From positions 1,082,009-1,146,008 of the forward strand of contig CAADRB010000038.1 in the NCBI GenBank assembly GCA_900708905.1: a DNA stretch of 64,000 bases, read 5' to 3'. Made by a program: the position numbers and the translations under genes. The DNA comes from Hymenolepis diminuta. Taxonomy: Eukaryota > Platyhelminthes > Cestoda > Cyclophyllidea > Hymenolepididae. Shown piece by piece: positions 22,836 through 37,600 of this stretch (positions are counted from its first letter, which is position 1; the number at the start of each line of letters is the position of its first letter). Below the pieces are notes generated by a model. That model made no database searches and was not told where the DNA came from. It saw nothing but the letters and a program-made list of their open reading frames with translations.

Positions 22836-24565
22836 CTAGTCAGTTGGCACTGGCGAAGGTTTCCTTCCATACAGATTTTCAAGAGCAGATTCAAGATTTG
22901 GGTAATGGAATCGAAATCCGGCAGCAACGACCTTAGCAGGTATGACACGTTGACCTTCAAGTAGTAACGGGGCTCGATCCTCACCAAGCATGGCCTTCAC
23001 AACAAATGCGGGTGTCGGAATGCGTCCAGCGAAGAATGGTGCTCCCAAGGACTGGCAGAGAGCTCGGGAAAATACACCTTGGCGAACAGGATTCGGAGCT
23101 GTGCCATTAACTGGACCGTCCAGCTTTTGACCTAAAATATGTACATTTTAGTTAATTTTCTATGCAAATACACTTTCGTCTGAACATGGCGTCGTGGTAA
23201 AAATGGGAGGCACCTGGTTAATTGATCGCAATTAATGTCGATTAAGAGTATAGGGTAGATAGTGGCCAAACTTCCATCTAAACATTAGATTAAGCATTGG
23301 GACTTTTTGGACGACATCTGTCTGTAGGCTCTCTATAAGGTAACATTGTGGAATTTTAATGATGATAAACATACCCTGTCAACATCAGAATATGAGGTTA
23401 TATAAATATGTTAATCCACCAGTGTGAGTTTAGTCGTAAATAAGCTGTTGCAGCATAACGCTTACTGATTCCTAACTCTATATCCAGGCTGTATACATTT
23501 TCTAATATTCAGTTAGATGAACGTTTTCACCCTTCTATCGCAATATACCTATTGACAATAAAGAGAATATGTGTTCAATTGAGTAAATTACAAATAAAGA
23601 TCTTATTTGTAAAATTGGATGGCTTAATCAATAATGAAGATATCCCCATTGTAATTCTGTCTCTGTCATATCTACAAGTTTTAAATTATACGTACCAGAA
23701 TGATCTGTTAGTAAAAAACAGAAAATATTGACAAGATCATCAATATGAATCCATGAGAACCACTGCTTTCCATCACCAATAGGCCCAGCCAAGCCCAGAC
23801 GATGAGAGACGTACATATTCGTCAGGGCGCCTCCATCCTTTGATAGGACAATTCCTATAACAAGTTACTAAAAATTGAGAATCGTAGACGCAAATAGAGA
23901 AACCGGAATATAGACTTCAAATACCAACTCTAACAAAAACGCGTCGAACACCACCTAGTTGTGGACCGGAACAAGCGGCTTCCCAGTCATGAACGAGATG
24001 AGAAAGAAAACCAGATTCAACATACTTGTCCTCCTCAGTGTAACTAATGGATAGATCGGGCTTATAAAATCCTAGAAAAAATTAAAATAAAACATTAAGG
24101 TATACCGATAGCTGATGCGTTGATAAAATGCTTCGTTGACTTCGAAAGAGATTTGACCAAAGTTTTAGTAGTCTCTATGCGACTGCTATGAACTTCTTCT
24201 AGAAACTCGTTGTAAGAACTACTAAAATAGAAAAGAACATTAAAATAAATAAGTGAACAAACTTAGAGAAAAGAAACTTGGAATTGATTTCACCAATACT
24301 TCGGCCCGATAAATTTACAACAGCATGAGTATCTTCCGGAAGACCGGAGGACTCAACAGTTTTCTGGTGAATGAATTAAGTCCAATGGAAGTAAATTTAT
24401 ACCCAGGATAGATCTTCACTGCGCTTTGGATCACGCGATATTATTCGGACATTAATACCTTTTGCAAGCAATTTCGCTTTTAAAGCTTTTCCAATCAGGC
24501 CACTTCCACCACCTGAATTAAAAATATAAATGACCAATACATGACAAACCAATAACGACATTCAT
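22836..24565 (-). CDS. SDR39U1: SDR39U1-type epimerase family protein (extended/atypical short-chain dehydrogenase)
   Basis: Seven exons on the minus strand: 24550-24565, 24403-24512, 24263-24363, 24106-24221, 23925-24071, 23696-23854 and 22836-23131. They total 945 nt (314 residues plus stop) with every junction GT-AG and in phase. The 16-nt first exon encodes MNVVIG and joins to complete the nucleotide-binding GGGSGLIG motif at residues 6-13. Other family marks are NLSG after the third strand, SRIETTK, NASAIGFY, GGALTNM, RLGLAGPIGDGKQWFSWIHIDD, NGTAPNPV and the C-terminal LLEGQRVIPAK. Known family: YfcH/SDR39U1 proteins with a Rossmann fold binding NAD(P)H; the substrate is not established. 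Length matches the human protein (about 300 residues). The four 5' introns are only 34-41 nt and the last is 564 nt. Confidence 0.92.
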
Positions 24566-25586: not shown

Positions 25587-28502
25587 TCATTCCGTAAAGG
25601 CGAAATTATTAAAATAATCCGAAAAAGGCTGTGCAGGCTCAATTTTACACAGCTCATCAATTGCACGAGCAGTCTAAGAAATGAAGAAAAAAAGTTTTAC
25701 TAACTACACCAAAAAGGCGTCCAAAAAAAATTCAACCTCCACTAACTTCTTCTAGATAGCATATTTCGACAGTCGGTTCCTGTGTACTCAACCAGGCGAG
25801 GAAATTGGTCTGCTAAAATATCAGGAAAAAAGTTGTCACAAAAAATTACTAGTGAGAGCTAAGATCAAAGCAGTTTGCATTTTAACAAACAGCGCAACAA
25901 TCCAGTGAAAACTTTAGTCATTTCACAATTAGACGGCTTGATGATAGGTAAATAAGAAAGTTTATGTAGGATAATAACATCCTCTGGTTTATACCTAGCA
26001 CATCTATGATTCATAAATAAAGCACAATGCTATTTAATAATAATTCAGTAGAAGAGGTCGAAAATTACCAATTCTTGTGGAGGATGTGAACAAGTCGAAG
26101 TAGGTGGGTAGGACGATGCAAAAGGAGAAGAGTTGCTGCGAGAAAGAGAATTATTTTGTGGAGTATGAATACGAAGAGATGCATTTGCACGATCCAGATC
26201 ATCAGAGTAGCCGCTGGTGGGAAGACATCTTTCTACTGAAAACAATCAGAATGAATAGGGTTAATTATAAATTATTGACTTTCAAATGATTTTGTCAAAA
26301 GGGAAAAAGTATTAGTTTGCTGAAATCGTAGAAGCGTAAAAACTTCCTCAATCAACAATTTCCATAGTGAGATTGGGTTAATGAAAACGATCACTTATTA
26401 AACGAAAAATCTGCCTCTATTCCCACGAAAGTTCAACTTTGTAGCGGAATGAGCAAAATATCGGTTAAAAATATACATTCGACTTTGGCTCTCTATGGGA
26501 TATTCAATTTAATACCATAGATACAAAACTCACGATTGTGCTGGGATTAGACAGAACATATAGTCAGATCTATGCATTTTCATAGCTGGGATACAAGATT
26601 TAAACTGTTATTTTGATAAAAACCTATCTATTTAATAGATTCAAGAACTGTTTGAATGATCAACCGAAACGATATTAAATTATAAGATGCTTGAATATAC
26701 ATGTTTTTATTCAAAATAGAGCCTGGATATCATAACCTCTAGAGGTTCAATATTTATTTGATTGAAAGTCAACTTCATACCTAGTAGATTGTGTTCATCA
26801 ATTACATGGATATTTGACGTCTTTCGTGGAATTGGTGAAACACGGTCGGAAATTGCTGTATCATCCGATTCATCTGAAAATGTCAACAGAATTTGATCGA
26901 TTACAAAAAATAAAAAAACGACATCTATGCTTGGCTTATTCACACTCTATTGGCTAATAAGACTATAACTCATTCAATAGAACATATCTGAAGATGACGA
27001 TATAAGGAAAGACTCCCCTGACAGATTTTAAATGAAATCGAATGAAATGAATTTACCAAAGAATCTTGAGAGCAAATCATAAAATTTGAATTTAGGAACA
27101 TTGAACAGGAAACTATGTCTACTAAAAAAATTGGACAGCCGAAAGCATAAAAAATCGAATACAGGACTCCATTATCTATTTTCACTCGATTTCTACTGTT
27201 TAATCACTAAATGGACTAATTTATATTTCTTAAGCTCAAATGCTTCACCATAAATATAACTAATGGAAATTTAAACTTTGCTCCAGCTAATAATAGCCAC
27301 GACGAAAATGGATACTACTAATGATAATAAACCAGTAGTATTGATTATCACGTATCACATACCTTCAACAGAGATGTTATCTATATCGTCACCAAAGCTG
27401 AGTGTTTCGAAACTAGGATTCTGTGTTGGTATCCACGTATCTACGATAGAACTCTGTTCCTGTGGCAGAGCACTGTCCTGTTCTAAGGAAAGAGATGGAC
27501 AATTATTATTCTCCTAAAAAGAAAGGAAAGATAATTATTTGATCAGATTTGATCCCAGCAAGATTTGGATTTAAGTAAATCTCATCACTTTTTTAGCATC
27601 GGATCCAGATCCGTCATTAGTGATGAGATTGGAAGATTGGACACTTTTTTCAGTTATAGAAATTGGCTGAGGATCGATATCCACCTAAATATTTACAGAT
27701 ATGTATAGGATCAAAATAAAATCACTCACTGTCTCAGCAACGGATCCTGATTTTTTCTTACTGTTTTCGCTCTCACCATCTTCACAACTTGAGCGCGAGC
27801 TCAATCCACACCGTTCAATTTCTTCAGATGGACTAAAACACGTGAGAGTAAATTCAAACTGCTTACGGTGAGAGAACGACGGCCAACAAATCTTTCTCTG
27901 CACTTTTACTATAAAAAGAAAGTAAAATAAAATTTGTTCAACATACATGGAAGGAATAGATGAAAAAGCCTCAGAAAGACAGTGAGTATCCTTGACTATT
28001 CTTAGATCCTTAACACTCGAAACAAAAGTTTGCTAAAACATCAACGAATATATAACGACATACCGAATTGGAATCATAGTTAATGAGGTATTCATCTAAG
28101 AAGACAATGAAAAAGCAAACATCTCGATTTCGAAATTTATTTCTAAAATGAGAAGTAAATCAATTTAAGAAGACATACCTGCATACCAATACTTCCTGCA
28201 GGCTATTATCGACAATTAAATCAATCCAAAATTGGCCATCACACAGTCTAAGCGACTAAAAGATTAAATTGTTGCATTATTCAATTTACGTCTGTGTCTT
28301 TGACTACAAGTGCTTTGGGACCTTCAGGCATATTTGCCCATGACTGCTCAGTTACGGAAAGCTTGCAGCACAAGTAAATAAATGGTCTGACATCTGCCAA
28401 TTCACTTACGATATTGGGTACATTAAGACCAACAATCCAGGGTCTTAAAGGTCTAACACGTTTGCGTAAATTCTTATAGCGCAAAGAAGCACTATTTCTC
28501 AT
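25587..28502 (-). CDS. Candidate TPP1/ACD-like shelterin OB-fold protein
   Basis: Twelve exons were reconstructed by splice phase: 28290-28502, 28179-28255, 28064-28142, 27947-28032, 27867-27908, 27730-27832, 27589-27684, 27363-27513, 26781-26873, 26069-26235, 25747-25812 and 25587-25673. They total 1260 nt, 419 residues. An in-frame TGA lies just before the ATG. Residues 19-23 (LRPWI) reproduce the entry motif of the vertebrate TPP1 OB fold. A beta-rich domain follows with ALVVKDTDSLRLCDGQFWIDLIV, then KFRNRDVCFFIVFLDEY and SQTFVSSVKDLRIV. These match in order and spacing the TPP1 strands LLVSDGTHSVRCLV, GFRGTEGRLLLLQD and FYLQVDRFSLL. Residues from about 150 to 370 are a Ser/Glu/Asp-rich linker, followed by a short C-terminal segment with TNFLAWLS. 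This layout (N-terminal OB, Ser-rich linker, short C-terminal binding segment) is that of TPP1. Known role of TPP1: partner of POT1 and recruiter of telomerase. Functional assignment is inference; another OB-fold protein remains possible. Six introns are 31-45 nt. Confidence 0.5.
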
Positions 28503-31622: not shown

Positions 31623-34600
31623 ATGAGTATTGCTAGTCGGATTTTACCCCCTATGTCGTCCTTAACGGACAGGATTCGAAACGTCTGTATTCTTGCACAC
31701 GTTGATCACGGCAAGTTACATCTATTTTTATCTTTATAACCTGTAAAGTAATTTAGACAGATTTTGCGGCTAGCTCAATAACATAGAAGTTTAAGAGAAT
31801 ACGTTGCCTTTTCTTCCTAGGGTATCCTTTTAAAGATTTGGTGCATTTTATTAAGGTAAGACAACACTCGCAGATGCACTGCTGGCCACCAATGGAATTA
31901 TTTCATCTCGTCAGGCTGGCCAAGTGCGTTACATGGACAGCTTAGAGGCTGAGCAAATGCGTGGCATCACAATGAAGTCCAGTGCAGTGGGTCTATTCTA
32001 TAACCCTACCATTCAATTCAACCGCCAGACTAATCCAGAAACCGCTTCATCTGATCCAAACTCCTATCTCATCAATCTTATCGATTCTCCCGGCCACGTT
32101 GACTTTGCATCAGACGTTTCTACTGCAGTCAGACTATGTGATTGCGCCTTAATAGTTGTCGATGTAGTGGAGGCCGTCTGTCCCCAAACTAGAGCAGTTT
32201 TACGCGAGGCATGGAATGAACGCCTCACCCTCATTCTAGTTCTCAACAAAGTCGATCGTCTGTTTATCCAGCTCCGTCTCACTCCTCTTCAAGTCTACGA
32301 CAGGATCTTACGTCTTTTGGAGCAGGTTAATTCCGTCCTTGCGGAATTATACAAAGCGGATATTATGCAGCAACAGCAACAGAATGTAACAACCGAGGGT
32401 ACCATGGAAGGTGCTGGAGGAACGTACACTTGGAGCACAGGACTTGAAAATAAGGATGATTCTCACGTTTATTTCTCACCAGATCAATCTAACGTCATTT
32501 TCACATCGGCTGTGGACGGCTGGGGCTTTCGTATAAGCGATTTTGCAGATCTATGGGCAGAACGCATGAAAGTTCCCAAAAAGGGTCTTTTGAAGGCTCT
32601 GTGGGGAGATTACTACTTTGCGCCTTCACCAGATGGTGGTCCACCTCGTGTCAAGCCGAATGCTCGATTGAAAAATAAAAATCCTGTCTTCGTTCAGCTC
32701 ATTATTGATCATCTGCACCATATTTATAATGTATGTTTACTTTTCACTGTTATTTGGCACTCTTTTTCTTAGATGCCTCTTTAAGATTAGATTTAGATGA
32801 AAGTGAAAAGGTGGAAATTACTTTATGACATTATCTGTTCGAATTTTCCTCTACTTTTTCGATTTATTAGGGGATAAATAGACCACTGATGACGAATGAT
32901 TTCTATATTCAATGTTGTCTAATATTGTTGTTCAGATGATTTATCATTGCCAAATCATGAATACCTAGCTTTCAAGTCTGGATTTGCCCGTAGATTCCGA
33001 AGTTCAGGTCAGATTTGTTATGCCAGCATTTTTATGTCATTATCGGATGCTGGTTAGGAGTAGCCAATATGTATTTTATTATTTTTTTTTCATAATATGT
33101 GGAAGGCACTAGGTTTAGAAGAATGATTCGCTGTAAACATATCCTTCTATATCTTATTGTCGGTCGGCATTATATAAATATACAGACAGGGTTTTGATAG
33201 GAAGCTAAATAGTGTTTTACCCTACACTGGAAGTACAATATCGCTATGTCGATTCCGCACCATAAAATGGCAGATTATGTCATGAAGAGATTAACCGTTA
33301 TTCATCTATTGGTTGTTTGATTGATTGTTTGATCAGTCATATTGTTCCACATCGAACATGGGAGTCCAGTAGCCATGAGTGTTTGGTTCAGCCTTCTGTG
33401 GCCAATCGTAACCATTTTAAGTCAATAAATGACTAGTCTTGCTCAGTTCAGTCTTTTATCTCTCTGGAGTCGGAGTAACTGGCACAGTTTATAACCGTTG
33501 GCTGACTATACCTTATAACAGTTTTGTTTTTGCTTAAAGTTCTATGTTAGATTGGTATTAACCGGCTCATTATTTGTTCGGTTCCAGTGGCGAAGCGAAA
33601 ATTTTGATCAAAGAGGACCATCTAAACACGTAAGAGGAGAAAGATAGTTCATGTTTAAAGAAGGGGGAGGATAACAGGATTGAGTGTCAGGTCATCTGCC
33701 TCCTCCATTTTAATTGTCAGGCTTGTCTTATCGTAAACTTCGTATAGAAAATCCGGATCACATGGTTTGATGCGATTCCGTCAACTGATGTTTGATTTTT
33801 CGTAGGCTATTATTCTATCTCTCAATTCTGCTAGGAAGACGAATGAATGCTTTGCTAACATCCATGACAGCTCATGGCATAGTCTAATCAGCCACCATTG
33901 ATGAATTAGTCTGGTGTCAGACTGGTCATATTTTGCACACCGTGTGCTGAAATCAGTTACCATCAACAATTATTTCCTCTTCAATCACTCTCGTAGCAGT
34001 GCTTTTTGCATAAATTTCCCTCTTTTAGAAAATTATTCTGGAGGAAAATCGAGAAGCCGCTGGTCACATTGCTGGACGCTTAGGAATTAAGCTGGAACAG
34101 CGCTATCTTCAACAGAATCACAATGTCGATAATCGCGGTATATTGAGATCAATCTTGGGCTCATGGCTTCCTCTTGGCCCCGCAATGTTCCGCTCCATCG
34201 TGGAGATTTGTCCCAGCCCTCAAAAAGCCATCACACCCGAGCGAGCCCGTTTCATGATTTTTGGTGAGACTGCTTCTGCTGATCAGATGATGTTAGAAAA
34301 TGATGCTGTGGTAGAAAATGATGAGGCTTTTCCTGCCCTAAGTGCTCTGCAGAAGTGTGGTTGCAGCTCTGACGATCCTGTTATAATATTTGTTTCGAAG
34401 GTATTCTGTTCTGACTCACAGACTAATACTACTTCCAGCGTCACCTTTCCTAAAATTAGCCAACCCACAAGGCAAGAGAGCAAGGCTCTCATCTCAACCC
34501 CTAGACTTCAAGGGGCCTCAAATAATTCGGTCACTGTTCCGAATAATGAATTTGTCGCCCTCTCACGTATCTACAGTGGTCGCGTTAGACTTGGTCAGCG

Positions 34601-37600
34601 TCTATTTGTTCTCGGACCGAAATTTGATGGAAGCAATGTGCCCGATTGCCTGTTGGACACCAATCCAAATGACCTTCCCCTTGGACAACTGAGAATTCCT
34701 GATAGTGAGGAAGATGAGGAGTGCGAGCTACGGTCTGTATCTTCTTCCCGCCACAGGTCTGTTTCTAATTCGTCTTTGTCTTCAAATGCGTCTGATGCCG
34801 CCTCTATGGGCACGGAGTATGCTGGGCATGATGACCGCTTTGTTCGACATGCCTACGTAGGAGAAATCAGTGATGTGGTGCAGTTCTGTGGTGGGCAGAA
34901 TAACGTCATTAGGTTAAAGAATGTCAAATATCCAGACGATTCACTCTCTGCTGGTAATGTTGTGGGCCTTGTTGGGACATCAATTGTGAGCAATTTACCA
35001 AAATCTGGACTCTTGGTGTCGAGTCTACGTATGGTCACTTCAGTTTCTTCCTCTACAGAATCTGGGGATGAATTTAGACGCAGAATTCAACCACTGGGAG
35101 GTCTTGCAGTATGGCGCGGTGTCCCTGTAATTTCCCTTGCGATTGAACCCGTTAGCACCACAGAATCGGACATGTTACTACTTGAAGAAGGCCTAAAACT
35201 TCTTGAACGATCCGATCCTTGTGCCGAAGTTACATTCACTTCTAAAGGTGAATGCCTACTTCATGCTGCAGGTGAAATCCATATGCAAAAATGTCTTGAA
35301 GATTTGACCAAGTACTTTGCTCCTGAGTTGGAGCTGCACACATCTCCCCTTGTAGTGCCCTTTCGTGAGACTGTGACTCAAGGATGTCCTCCCGATGCCT
35401 ACATGCCCTTTGATTCTCTTGCCTTTGCTAAAGCCCAGTTGGAAAGAGAGTTAAAGCAGAAAAATCTTGTGTACGATGAAGTACGAGAGAACTGTGTACG
35501 TAAAGGAGGTGCTGAAGGGGCTGCCGAATTCCAGCCCCCAGAACAGGAATCTGAAACATGCGATCCAACGCCCTTCCTTCCTCTTGGAATGCTCCAGTTA
35601 CCTCATAGCAAATTGAGAACGCGTATTTTTATTCGTGTGACTGCTCATCCGATACCCGAAAACCTCCTCAACTGGCTTGAATCTCGTGGTGCGACCTATG
35701 TGAAGGTCCTTATCGGCAGTGTTAAACGCAAGTCATCATCATCCCGTCGTGCGGTGGCTTATCTAAAGCGATTTGAGGAGGAATTTTCTGCTCAATTGGA
35801 TGCTATCCCTCCAGAGTCTTGTGTCAGCCTGGATTGGCGTTCACTTAAGTCAAGGTTACTTTGCCTTGGACCCCAACAAGTGGGCCCCAATCTCTTATTC
35901 TCGCGTCTACGTTCGGGCTTATTTCGTTTGGACACAGCTTGGGGTAAACCGATGCCCCCATGGTCAGACGATAATGATCCTGTCCAAATAACACCAAGTG
36001 ACGTTTATGGCGGGGGAAACGTCTACCTCATGCACTTTCTCAGCTATAGTAAGGCAATTCTTAGAGGTTTCCAAATGGCGACTGAACAGGGCCCACTTTG
36101 TGCTGAGCCACTACGAGGTGTAGCCTTTGTTCTTGAAGAGATTTATGCTGAAGATCGTATGCATTTGCCTACTCCTCGAATCTTAACAGCTGCTGATCTG
36201 CAAGCAGAAGCCTCAGAAGAGGCTAAAGCTACAGAGGAACAAAAGTCGGATACCACCACTAAGGAGGAAGAGAAGGCTAGGAGTGAGGGGGATGATCCAA
36301 TATTGACCAAATTGATGGCGAAACAGGCGGCTATCAATAAGCGGCAAAAGGCTGCTTCCTCTATGTCCTGGCTAATCTCAGACGATGAGGAGAGTAATAG
36401 TGAAGATGGAAACAGCGACGATAATTATGATTATAATTACTCTGATAATGAATGGAATGAAGACATTGAAGATGAGTATAAATCGAAATCCGAAGAAAGT
36501 GTAGCTTCGGAAGAGGAAGAGGAAGAACAGGTTGCTGAAGTCGAGGTAGATTGAAATTTCTTTTACTCATGTGCATCATGTTCGATACCGTATATACTTT
36601 CTAGAAGACTGCAGCTTCTAAATCGATAGTGTAGAATTGAATATTCTTGCTAGGTTTTTCGATTTTTACCATTATATGGGATAAGAGATAGGGCGCTAGT
36701 GAACCGAAATTGTGGAGACTTAGTTGTATTGCGNNNNGGGGGGGGGGTTCATAGGAGTTCTAGAGGATGGGTTAATTGTGAGTGTAAGTGCATATAGGGG
36801 AATTGATAGAATATTTAAGGGGACAGCTAATATTGGTAACTTCTTGGTCGTTTATTTCTGTGTCACGTCAGAGGTCATTGGATCTAGATCTATAGATATG
36901 CATTCTGCTATTGAAATGGCATAAAGTACATTGCAGACGAGAACTCCAAGATATCACCACTATACCTGTTAAGAGGGGTTAAAGGGTATTTGGAATCAAC
37001 AAAATCTGTCAAACCAGAAGTCACGATATCGATACTCATTGTTGCACCCATTGGTATAGACCACTAACCGTACTTACTAATTCTGGTCAGGTACCTCTAC
37101 TCAGGTTAAGTGTTGTTAATACTTTCCTTAATGGATTTAGATATTTTATAAAACCATTCTATATGCACTCGGGGATTGGAGTGACAAGCGGAGTGATAGC
37201 AGAGTGCGATTTGTTTATTTTGAGAGGTCTATGTGTGCTCGAGATAAGCGTGGAGAAAGAAGCAGGTAGAAGTTGCATATATATAAAGCTTCTGTTTTTA
37301 GTCCCAGGAATGTATCAGATGTTGCAAAATTACCATTGGCAGAGTAAGGAAATCAAGTGCCGGTTATGGGTGAATGACACTTTAAGTGTAATCGATAACT
37401 ACTGAATTTGGAAAAGCTTAAAAGTACAACTTAGGCAAAATGGGGTGGGGGATGAAAACTTGAAGAATCAACCGAAGAGTAGAGCAGAGAGAAGAGTAGG
37501 CTGATGAATTGCTATAACTTCTTTAACTCTCCTCCCTCGTTTATTTGCTAGAAAAAGCTCACAATAAGTGATCATTTTTACTGGCAACGGCGAAGCAATA

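Follow-up and report, generated by a model that had tools for sequence, protein, structure and literature searches.

A gene of 12 exons lies on the minus strand (28502-25587) of the window, the 64,000-nucleotide stretch of Hymenolepis diminuta contig CAADRB010000038.1 that was analysed here. Sequence comparison confirms it as a real, poorly annotated tapeworm gene, one gene with one predicted product. The most likely reading of this product, and one that we put forward tentatively, is that of a TPP1-like shelterin subunit. We therefore call it a TPP1-like candidate; its membership in the TPP1/ACD family is not established.

Structure of the gene and its neighbourhood

The splice model was rebuilt from the sequence (Table 1). 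Its exons add up to 1260 nt including the stop codon and encode 419 residues, the introns are GT...AG in 11 of 11 cases, and the reading frame is unbroken across all joins. A preliminary description had drawn 12 scattered short frames together into one 419-residue frame with GT-AG introns throughout, and this assembly was recovered, with the Taenia solium protein P0001 aligning over 100% of it. The stretches quoted at that time (LRPWI, VVKDTDSLRLCDGQ, FRNRDVCFFIVFLDEY, and FVSSVKDLRIV) are all present in the rebuilt protein. The term micro-exon used for the parts was loose, since the exons span 42-213 nt; what is tiny is the introns, the first six of which measure 34, 36, 31, 38, 34, and 45 nt in succession (28289-27685, minus strand; range 31-45 nt). 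The introns among exons 8-11 (489, 545, and 256 nt) could be taken as a sign of two adjoining genes or of a chance chain of frames, but that explanation is very improbable and nearly refuted already, given that P0001 is a single protein spanning both halves of the query and that the Rodentolepis nana and Hymenolepis microstoma proteins (P0002 and P0004) extend from exon 3 or 4 through exon 12. Judged exon by exon against four orthologues, most exons are well backed, and exons 7 and 9 weakly to moderately so.

Three other features of the window were recorded alongside the gene. The neighbouring gene on the opposite strand is probably EFL1, because its predicted product matches an elongation-factor GTPase domain and, below the cut-off, EFG_III, EFL1, and EFG_IV. 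The downstream gene on the same strand has a DUF1731 match at its end and presumably resembles an SDR39U1-type epimerase. An open frame of 436 residues contains many hydrophobic stretches and has no Pfam match at E 0.001.

Table 1. Exons of the gene and neighbouring features in the window. Identities are residues identical over residues compared.
Feature	Length	Position	Strand	Content	Identity or domain match
Exon 1	213 nt	28290..28502	-	Start codon, LRPWI (28434-28448), NIVSELADVRPFIYLCCKL	44/71 to T. solium P0001
Exon 2	77 nt	28179..28255	-	SLRLCDGQFWIDLIV	15/25 to P0001
Exon 3	79 nt	28064..28142	-	FRNRDVCFFIVFLDEY	19/27 to P0001
Exon 4	86 nt	27947..28032	-	TFVSSVKDLRIV and conserved stretch downstream	14/28 to P0001, 22/28 to R. 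nana P0002
Exon 5	42 nt	27867..27908	-	Conserved N-terminal domain ends here	11/12 to P0002
Exon 6	103 nt	27730..27832	-	Ser/acid-rich linker	14/34 to P0002
Exon 7	96 nt	27589..27684	-	Linker	Best, 10/32 to H. microstoma P0004
Exon 8	151 nt	27363..27513	-	Linker and conserved WIPTQN island (~27418-27435), candidate POT1-binding motif
Exon 9	93 nt	26781..26873	-	Linker	15/31 to P0004, 14/31 to P0002, only 1/15 to P0001
Exon 10	167 nt	26069..26235	-	Linker, Ser/Pro-rich	27/54 to P0004
Exon 11	66 nt	25747..25812	-	Conserved C-terminal block NFLAWLSTQEPTVEICYLEE	16/22 to P0001
Exon 12	87 nt with stop	25587..25673	-	Conserved C-terminal block ARAIDELCKIEPAQPFSDYFNNFAF	15/28 to P0001
Opposite-strand neighbour gene		31855-36554	+		GTP_EFTU E 3.4e-40; below cut-off, EFG_III E 9e-5, EFL1 E 4.2e-4, EFG_IV E 8.5e-4
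Downstream same-strand gene		22839-24560	-		DUF1731, E 1.9e-20
Open frame	436 residues	44876-46186	+

Orthologues and public annotation

Some 5.8 billion proteins were searched and 4142 candidates obtained; 7 of these had E ≤1, and all 7 carry tapeworm names. The profile search returned 9 proteins at E ≤10, adding Echinococcus granulosus P0008 and a fragment, P0009. With the fragment left out there are eight tapeworm orthologues, namely those of T. solium (P0001, TSMEX_007458), T. asiatica (P0005), T. crassiceps (P0006, TcWFU_006445), Hydatigera taeniaeformis (P0007), E. multilocularis (P0003), E. granulosus (P0008, EGR_00828), R. nana (P0002), and H. microstoma (P0004). The 376-residue T. solium protein is 38% identical to the query over its whole length (E 2.6e-76) and has aligned residues in all 12 exons, and identity is 51% both to the H. 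microstoma protein (65% of the query aligned) and to that of R. nana (74%). The named relatives in both searches are cyclophyllidean tapeworms only, and among the matches listed no orthologue bears a telomere-type name.

These uncharacterised tapeworm proteins represent the same gene as the one in the window, differing from it in that the models of six of the eight do without N-terminal exons. At least one of exons 1-4 is absent from each of the six: exons 2-3 are missing in P0005 and P0008, exon 3 in P0007, and exon 1 in P0006, while the P0002 model begins in exon 3 and the P0004 model at the end of exon 4. The P0007 model also stops short of the C-terminal block. In most of the relatives found, automatic annotation has handled this gene badly, in line with the earlier suspicion that such a gene is easily missed. 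The six models break within or ahead of the stretch of small introns and lack exons from the same N-terminal region, an example of how introns of very small size may disrupt public gene models. No near-identical protein was returned from the 5.8 billion searched, which suggests that the H. diminuta gene has not been annotated or that its annotation took a form that escaped the search. When the H. diminuta protein was compared with its own genome (170.6 Mb, 203 contigs) at E 0.1, every one of the 9 matches fell at its own locus, and the gene is apparently single copy at that search sensitivity.

Anatomy of the predicted protein

The first 160 residues of the protein are conserved. They are followed by a variable linker rich in Ser and acidic residues, and the protein ends in a C-terminal block of some 49 conserved residues; the preliminary description had given this layout as a Ser/acid-rich linker followed by a conserved-looking tail. 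The motif in exon 1 reads LRPWL in P0001, P0003, P0005, and P0008 and LTPWL in P0007; the remaining three public models (P0002, P0004, and P0006) lack exon 1 and hence offer no comparison at LRPWI. Within the linker, 10-residue blocks score 0.38-0.62, the exceptions being 0.75 at residues 241-250 and 0.85 at residues 261-270. The latter belongs to the one clearly conserved island, WIPTQN (residues 259-264; consensus W[IV]PTQN), whose W, P, T, Q, and N do not vary among the nine rows of alignment A2 or among the eight rows of alignment A1. This is a fast-evolving protein with a probable nuclear location.

Motifs shared with TPP1

The feature that would mark a family member, an LRPWI opening the putative OB domain, is present at residues 19-23; it starts at residue 19, compared with residue 9 in the 455-residue human TPP1 sequence (P0012). 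The spacing of LRPW, DG, FR, and F is 58/23/26 in both the H. diminuta and the T. solium protein and 53/26/28 in human TPP1. When LRPW was held fixed and tolerances were set, DG, FR, and F-hydrophobic occurred in order in 49 of 200,000 shuffles of the H. diminuta protein and in 56 of 200,000 shuffles of the T. solium protein, figures that overstate the case because the choice of anchors was made once the match had been seen. When residues 2-61 were shuffled 200,000 times, LRPW[ILV] itself arose 121 times.

Alignment with MAFFT over 160 random row sets placed LRPW on LRPW in 157 of the sets, DG on DG in 124, and the fourth strand in register in 68. In none of the 160 did the fifth strand come into register, and no set had all five anchors together. 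In a hand-picked set (A7) the fifth strand came into register, but LRPW was then off by 10, and when set A8 was stripped of six rows (five named primates and one unnamed) LRPW was kept and the other register lost. The linker tryptophan fell on a TPP1 tryptophan in 91 of the 160 random sets. Because of its position in the HWAAS stretch, the TPP1 residue is Trp293, and the tryptophan of the W[IV]PTQN island may be its match. According to PMC5394241, Trp293 of human TPP1 occupies a pocket in OB3, the C-terminal OB fold of POT1, and another, first helix module is the essential one.

Unbiased comparisons with TPP1

Searches that were free to find any family did not find TPP1. No PF10341 match was present in the H. 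diminuta protein, for which hmmscan at E 10 returned zero families of any kind, and TPP1 was likewise absent at E 10 from the Pfam matches of alignment A1 (8 rows, 7 public and the window protein, several of them incomplete) and of the six N-terminal rows of A6. PDB sequence searches with the protein and with the alignments gave no TPP1 either, so the profile searches proposed earlier as a check on the TPP1 assignment went against it. A PF10341 scan of the whole genome was empty, as were its control profiles. What did appear was unconvincing, namely single-member Pfam matches to SPX (E 0.28) and SNAP (E 0.028) and PDB sequence matches to a sigma factor (E 1.3) and an endonuclease (E 0.31).

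Direct comparisons gave a similar picture. Against 120 TPP1 sequences, hhalign aligned five columns, those of LRPWI (E 0.024, probability 2%), and against one human sequence it aligned seven columns at the same motif (E 0.041). HMM scores in both directions lay within the range of shuffles, the score of the H. diminuta protein being reached by 246 of 1478 scored shuffles; profile-profile z-scores against TPP1, set on shuffles, ran from -0.44 to 0.87; and dipeptides shared with TPP1 around the expected offset showed no excess over chance. All six pairwise scores of the H. diminuta protein against TPP1 were not significant (reached by 51-214 of 1000 shuffles), and the same was true of the local scores of the T. 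solium protein (53, 160, and 307 of 1000). Under three matrices, 4, 1, and 20 of 1000 shuffles attained the global score of the T. solium protein, a result that was discounted, as the alignment was out of register at LRPW. Past the LRPWI motif, these sequence-comparison routes lend no support to TPP1. The TPP1 set comprised the best 120 of 212 sequences, and diversity was low in both families compared (Neff 1.59 and 1.76); as the set is mammalian where named and held no invertebrate TPP1 as a positive control, a true orthologue could have failed in these comparisons.

An alternative is a tapeworm-specific protein of unrelated function in which the N-terminal domain is something other than a TPP1-type OB fold, and LRPWI and the anchors are an after-the-fact coincidence. 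We regard this as a serious possibility, if a less probable one than a TPP1-like subunit: every unbiased test of TPP1 similarity came out at chance, none of the Pfam and PDB matches (SPX, SNAP, sigma factor, and endonuclease) is convincing, and the named relatives are confined to cyclophyllidean tapeworms. Against coincidence stand the order and spacing of the three anchors after LRPW, which are rare in shuffles, the placing, in 91 of 160 alignments, of the tryptophan of the best conserved linker island on the POT1-binding tryptophan of TPP1, and an overall layout that fits TPP1. The preliminary reading is supported in part: there is one tapeworm gene with one product, and the order and spacing of its motifs are TPP1-like, but unbiased similarity is at chance, and the assignment to a flatworm TPP1/ACD-like telomere protein is still a hypothesis.

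Mammalian TPP1 has an acidic run, EEKE, which is part of the telomerase (TEL) patch. This run has no evident tapeworm counterpart; DNKK lies opposite it in T. solium, in an unsure register. The C-terminal block gave no stable match across alignments to the TIN2-binding motif of TPP1. A strongly diverged tapeworm TPP1 that has kept LRPWI and a shortened POT1-binding motif, with an acidic telomerase patch that is either remodelled or gone, is a more specific proposal that we consider unlikely. Such a TPP1 would fit the lineage, in that a hymenolepidid relative has TTAGGG-type repeats at only one end of each chromosome and centromere repeats at the other.

Structure predictions

The AlphaFold model suggested earlier as a check was made in two ways, and owing to low confidence it neither supported nor refuted an OB fold. 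With eight tapeworm rows as input, AlphaFold2 gave a mean pLDDT of 31.1. With three tapeworm and 11 TPP1 rows the mean was 39.9 and the 10-residue blocks of residues 61-100 reached 59-74; the 11 TPP1 rows bias this second model towards TPP1, and its confidence was poor nonetheless. The two low-confidence models contain eight and six predicted strands besides helices, and the succession of these elements would be consistent with an OB fold. No TPP1 chain was among the best 50 matches of these models in either Foldseek or VIA-align, and neither had a structure match at E 0.001. With models of such poor quality, the absence of a structural match to TPP1 is not evidence against an OB fold.

The predicted strands and helices, and a linker of disordered appearance, would also suit an OB-fold protein other than the TPP1 orthologue, one that works at telomeres or in single-stranded DNA metabolism as STN1, TEN1, or RPA do. 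This is improbable in our judgement, because none of the Pfam OB families was matched and because, to our knowledge, LRPWI and a linker tryptophan are not hallmarks of the STN1, TEN1, and RPA families.

Telomere context

Contig 111 of the H. diminuta genome (943000-950500) encodes a POT1 candidate; both of its DNA-binding OB domains are present, divided among several open frames. PF02765 matches it in two pieces (E 1.0e-4 and 1.6e-4) and PF16686 at E 6.7e-9, with the OB2 piece at E 1.7e-10 in a further scan. A telomerase RNA-binding domain is encoded on contig 59 (E 7.6e-5), a TTAGGG array occupies bases 1-42 at the start of contig 149, and contig 3 has a five-unit TTAGGG match near position 2822828. 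With POT1, telomerase, and TTAGGG repeats in the genome, a partner protein of POT1 would be expected somewhere. Genome scans for TRF and TINF2_N were empty, and their control profiles were silent too.

If the product is the TPP1-like subunit that we tentatively prefer, we would expect an N-terminal OB fold in contact with telomerase, a WIPTQN motif inserted into the OB fold at the C-terminus of POT1, and a C-terminal block linking the TPP1-like/POT1 pair to double-strand telomere proteins. According to PMC7653826, the telomeric repeat of H. microstoma is found at a single end of each chromosome, in canonical form on five chromosomes and as a variant on one, and the opposite ends carry a repeat (median 179 bp) taken as the centromere; the authors present the adaptation of telomere proteins to such ends as still a question. 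A TPP1 candidate beside POT1 and telomerase genes would make that question testable in a laboratory tapeworm.

Comparison with known telomere proteins

The tapeworm protein resembles vertebrate TPP1/ACD (PF10341) in its N-terminal LRPWI, in the order and spacing of DG, FR, and F-hydrophobic, in the linker tryptophan, and in having a C-terminal block. It differs in lacking significant sequence similarity in the tests run, in the distance from the last anchor to the linker motif (101-133 residues in tapeworm proteins versus 90 in vertebrate TPP1), in showing no EEKE run, and in a C-terminus that does not align confidently with that of TPP1. No counterpart of the first helix module, essential in human TPP1, was identified.

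Among the matches listed from the openly licensed literature, we found no description of a flatworm TPP1. The abstract of PMC5032016 describes the telomere protection proteins of planarians as not yet identified before SmedOB1. As presented there, SmedOB1 is the planarian homologue of POT1 and hence a flatworm protein of the complex to which TPP1 belongs in other animals; it is POT1 and not TPP1, and a POT1 candidate occurs in the H. diminuta genome too.
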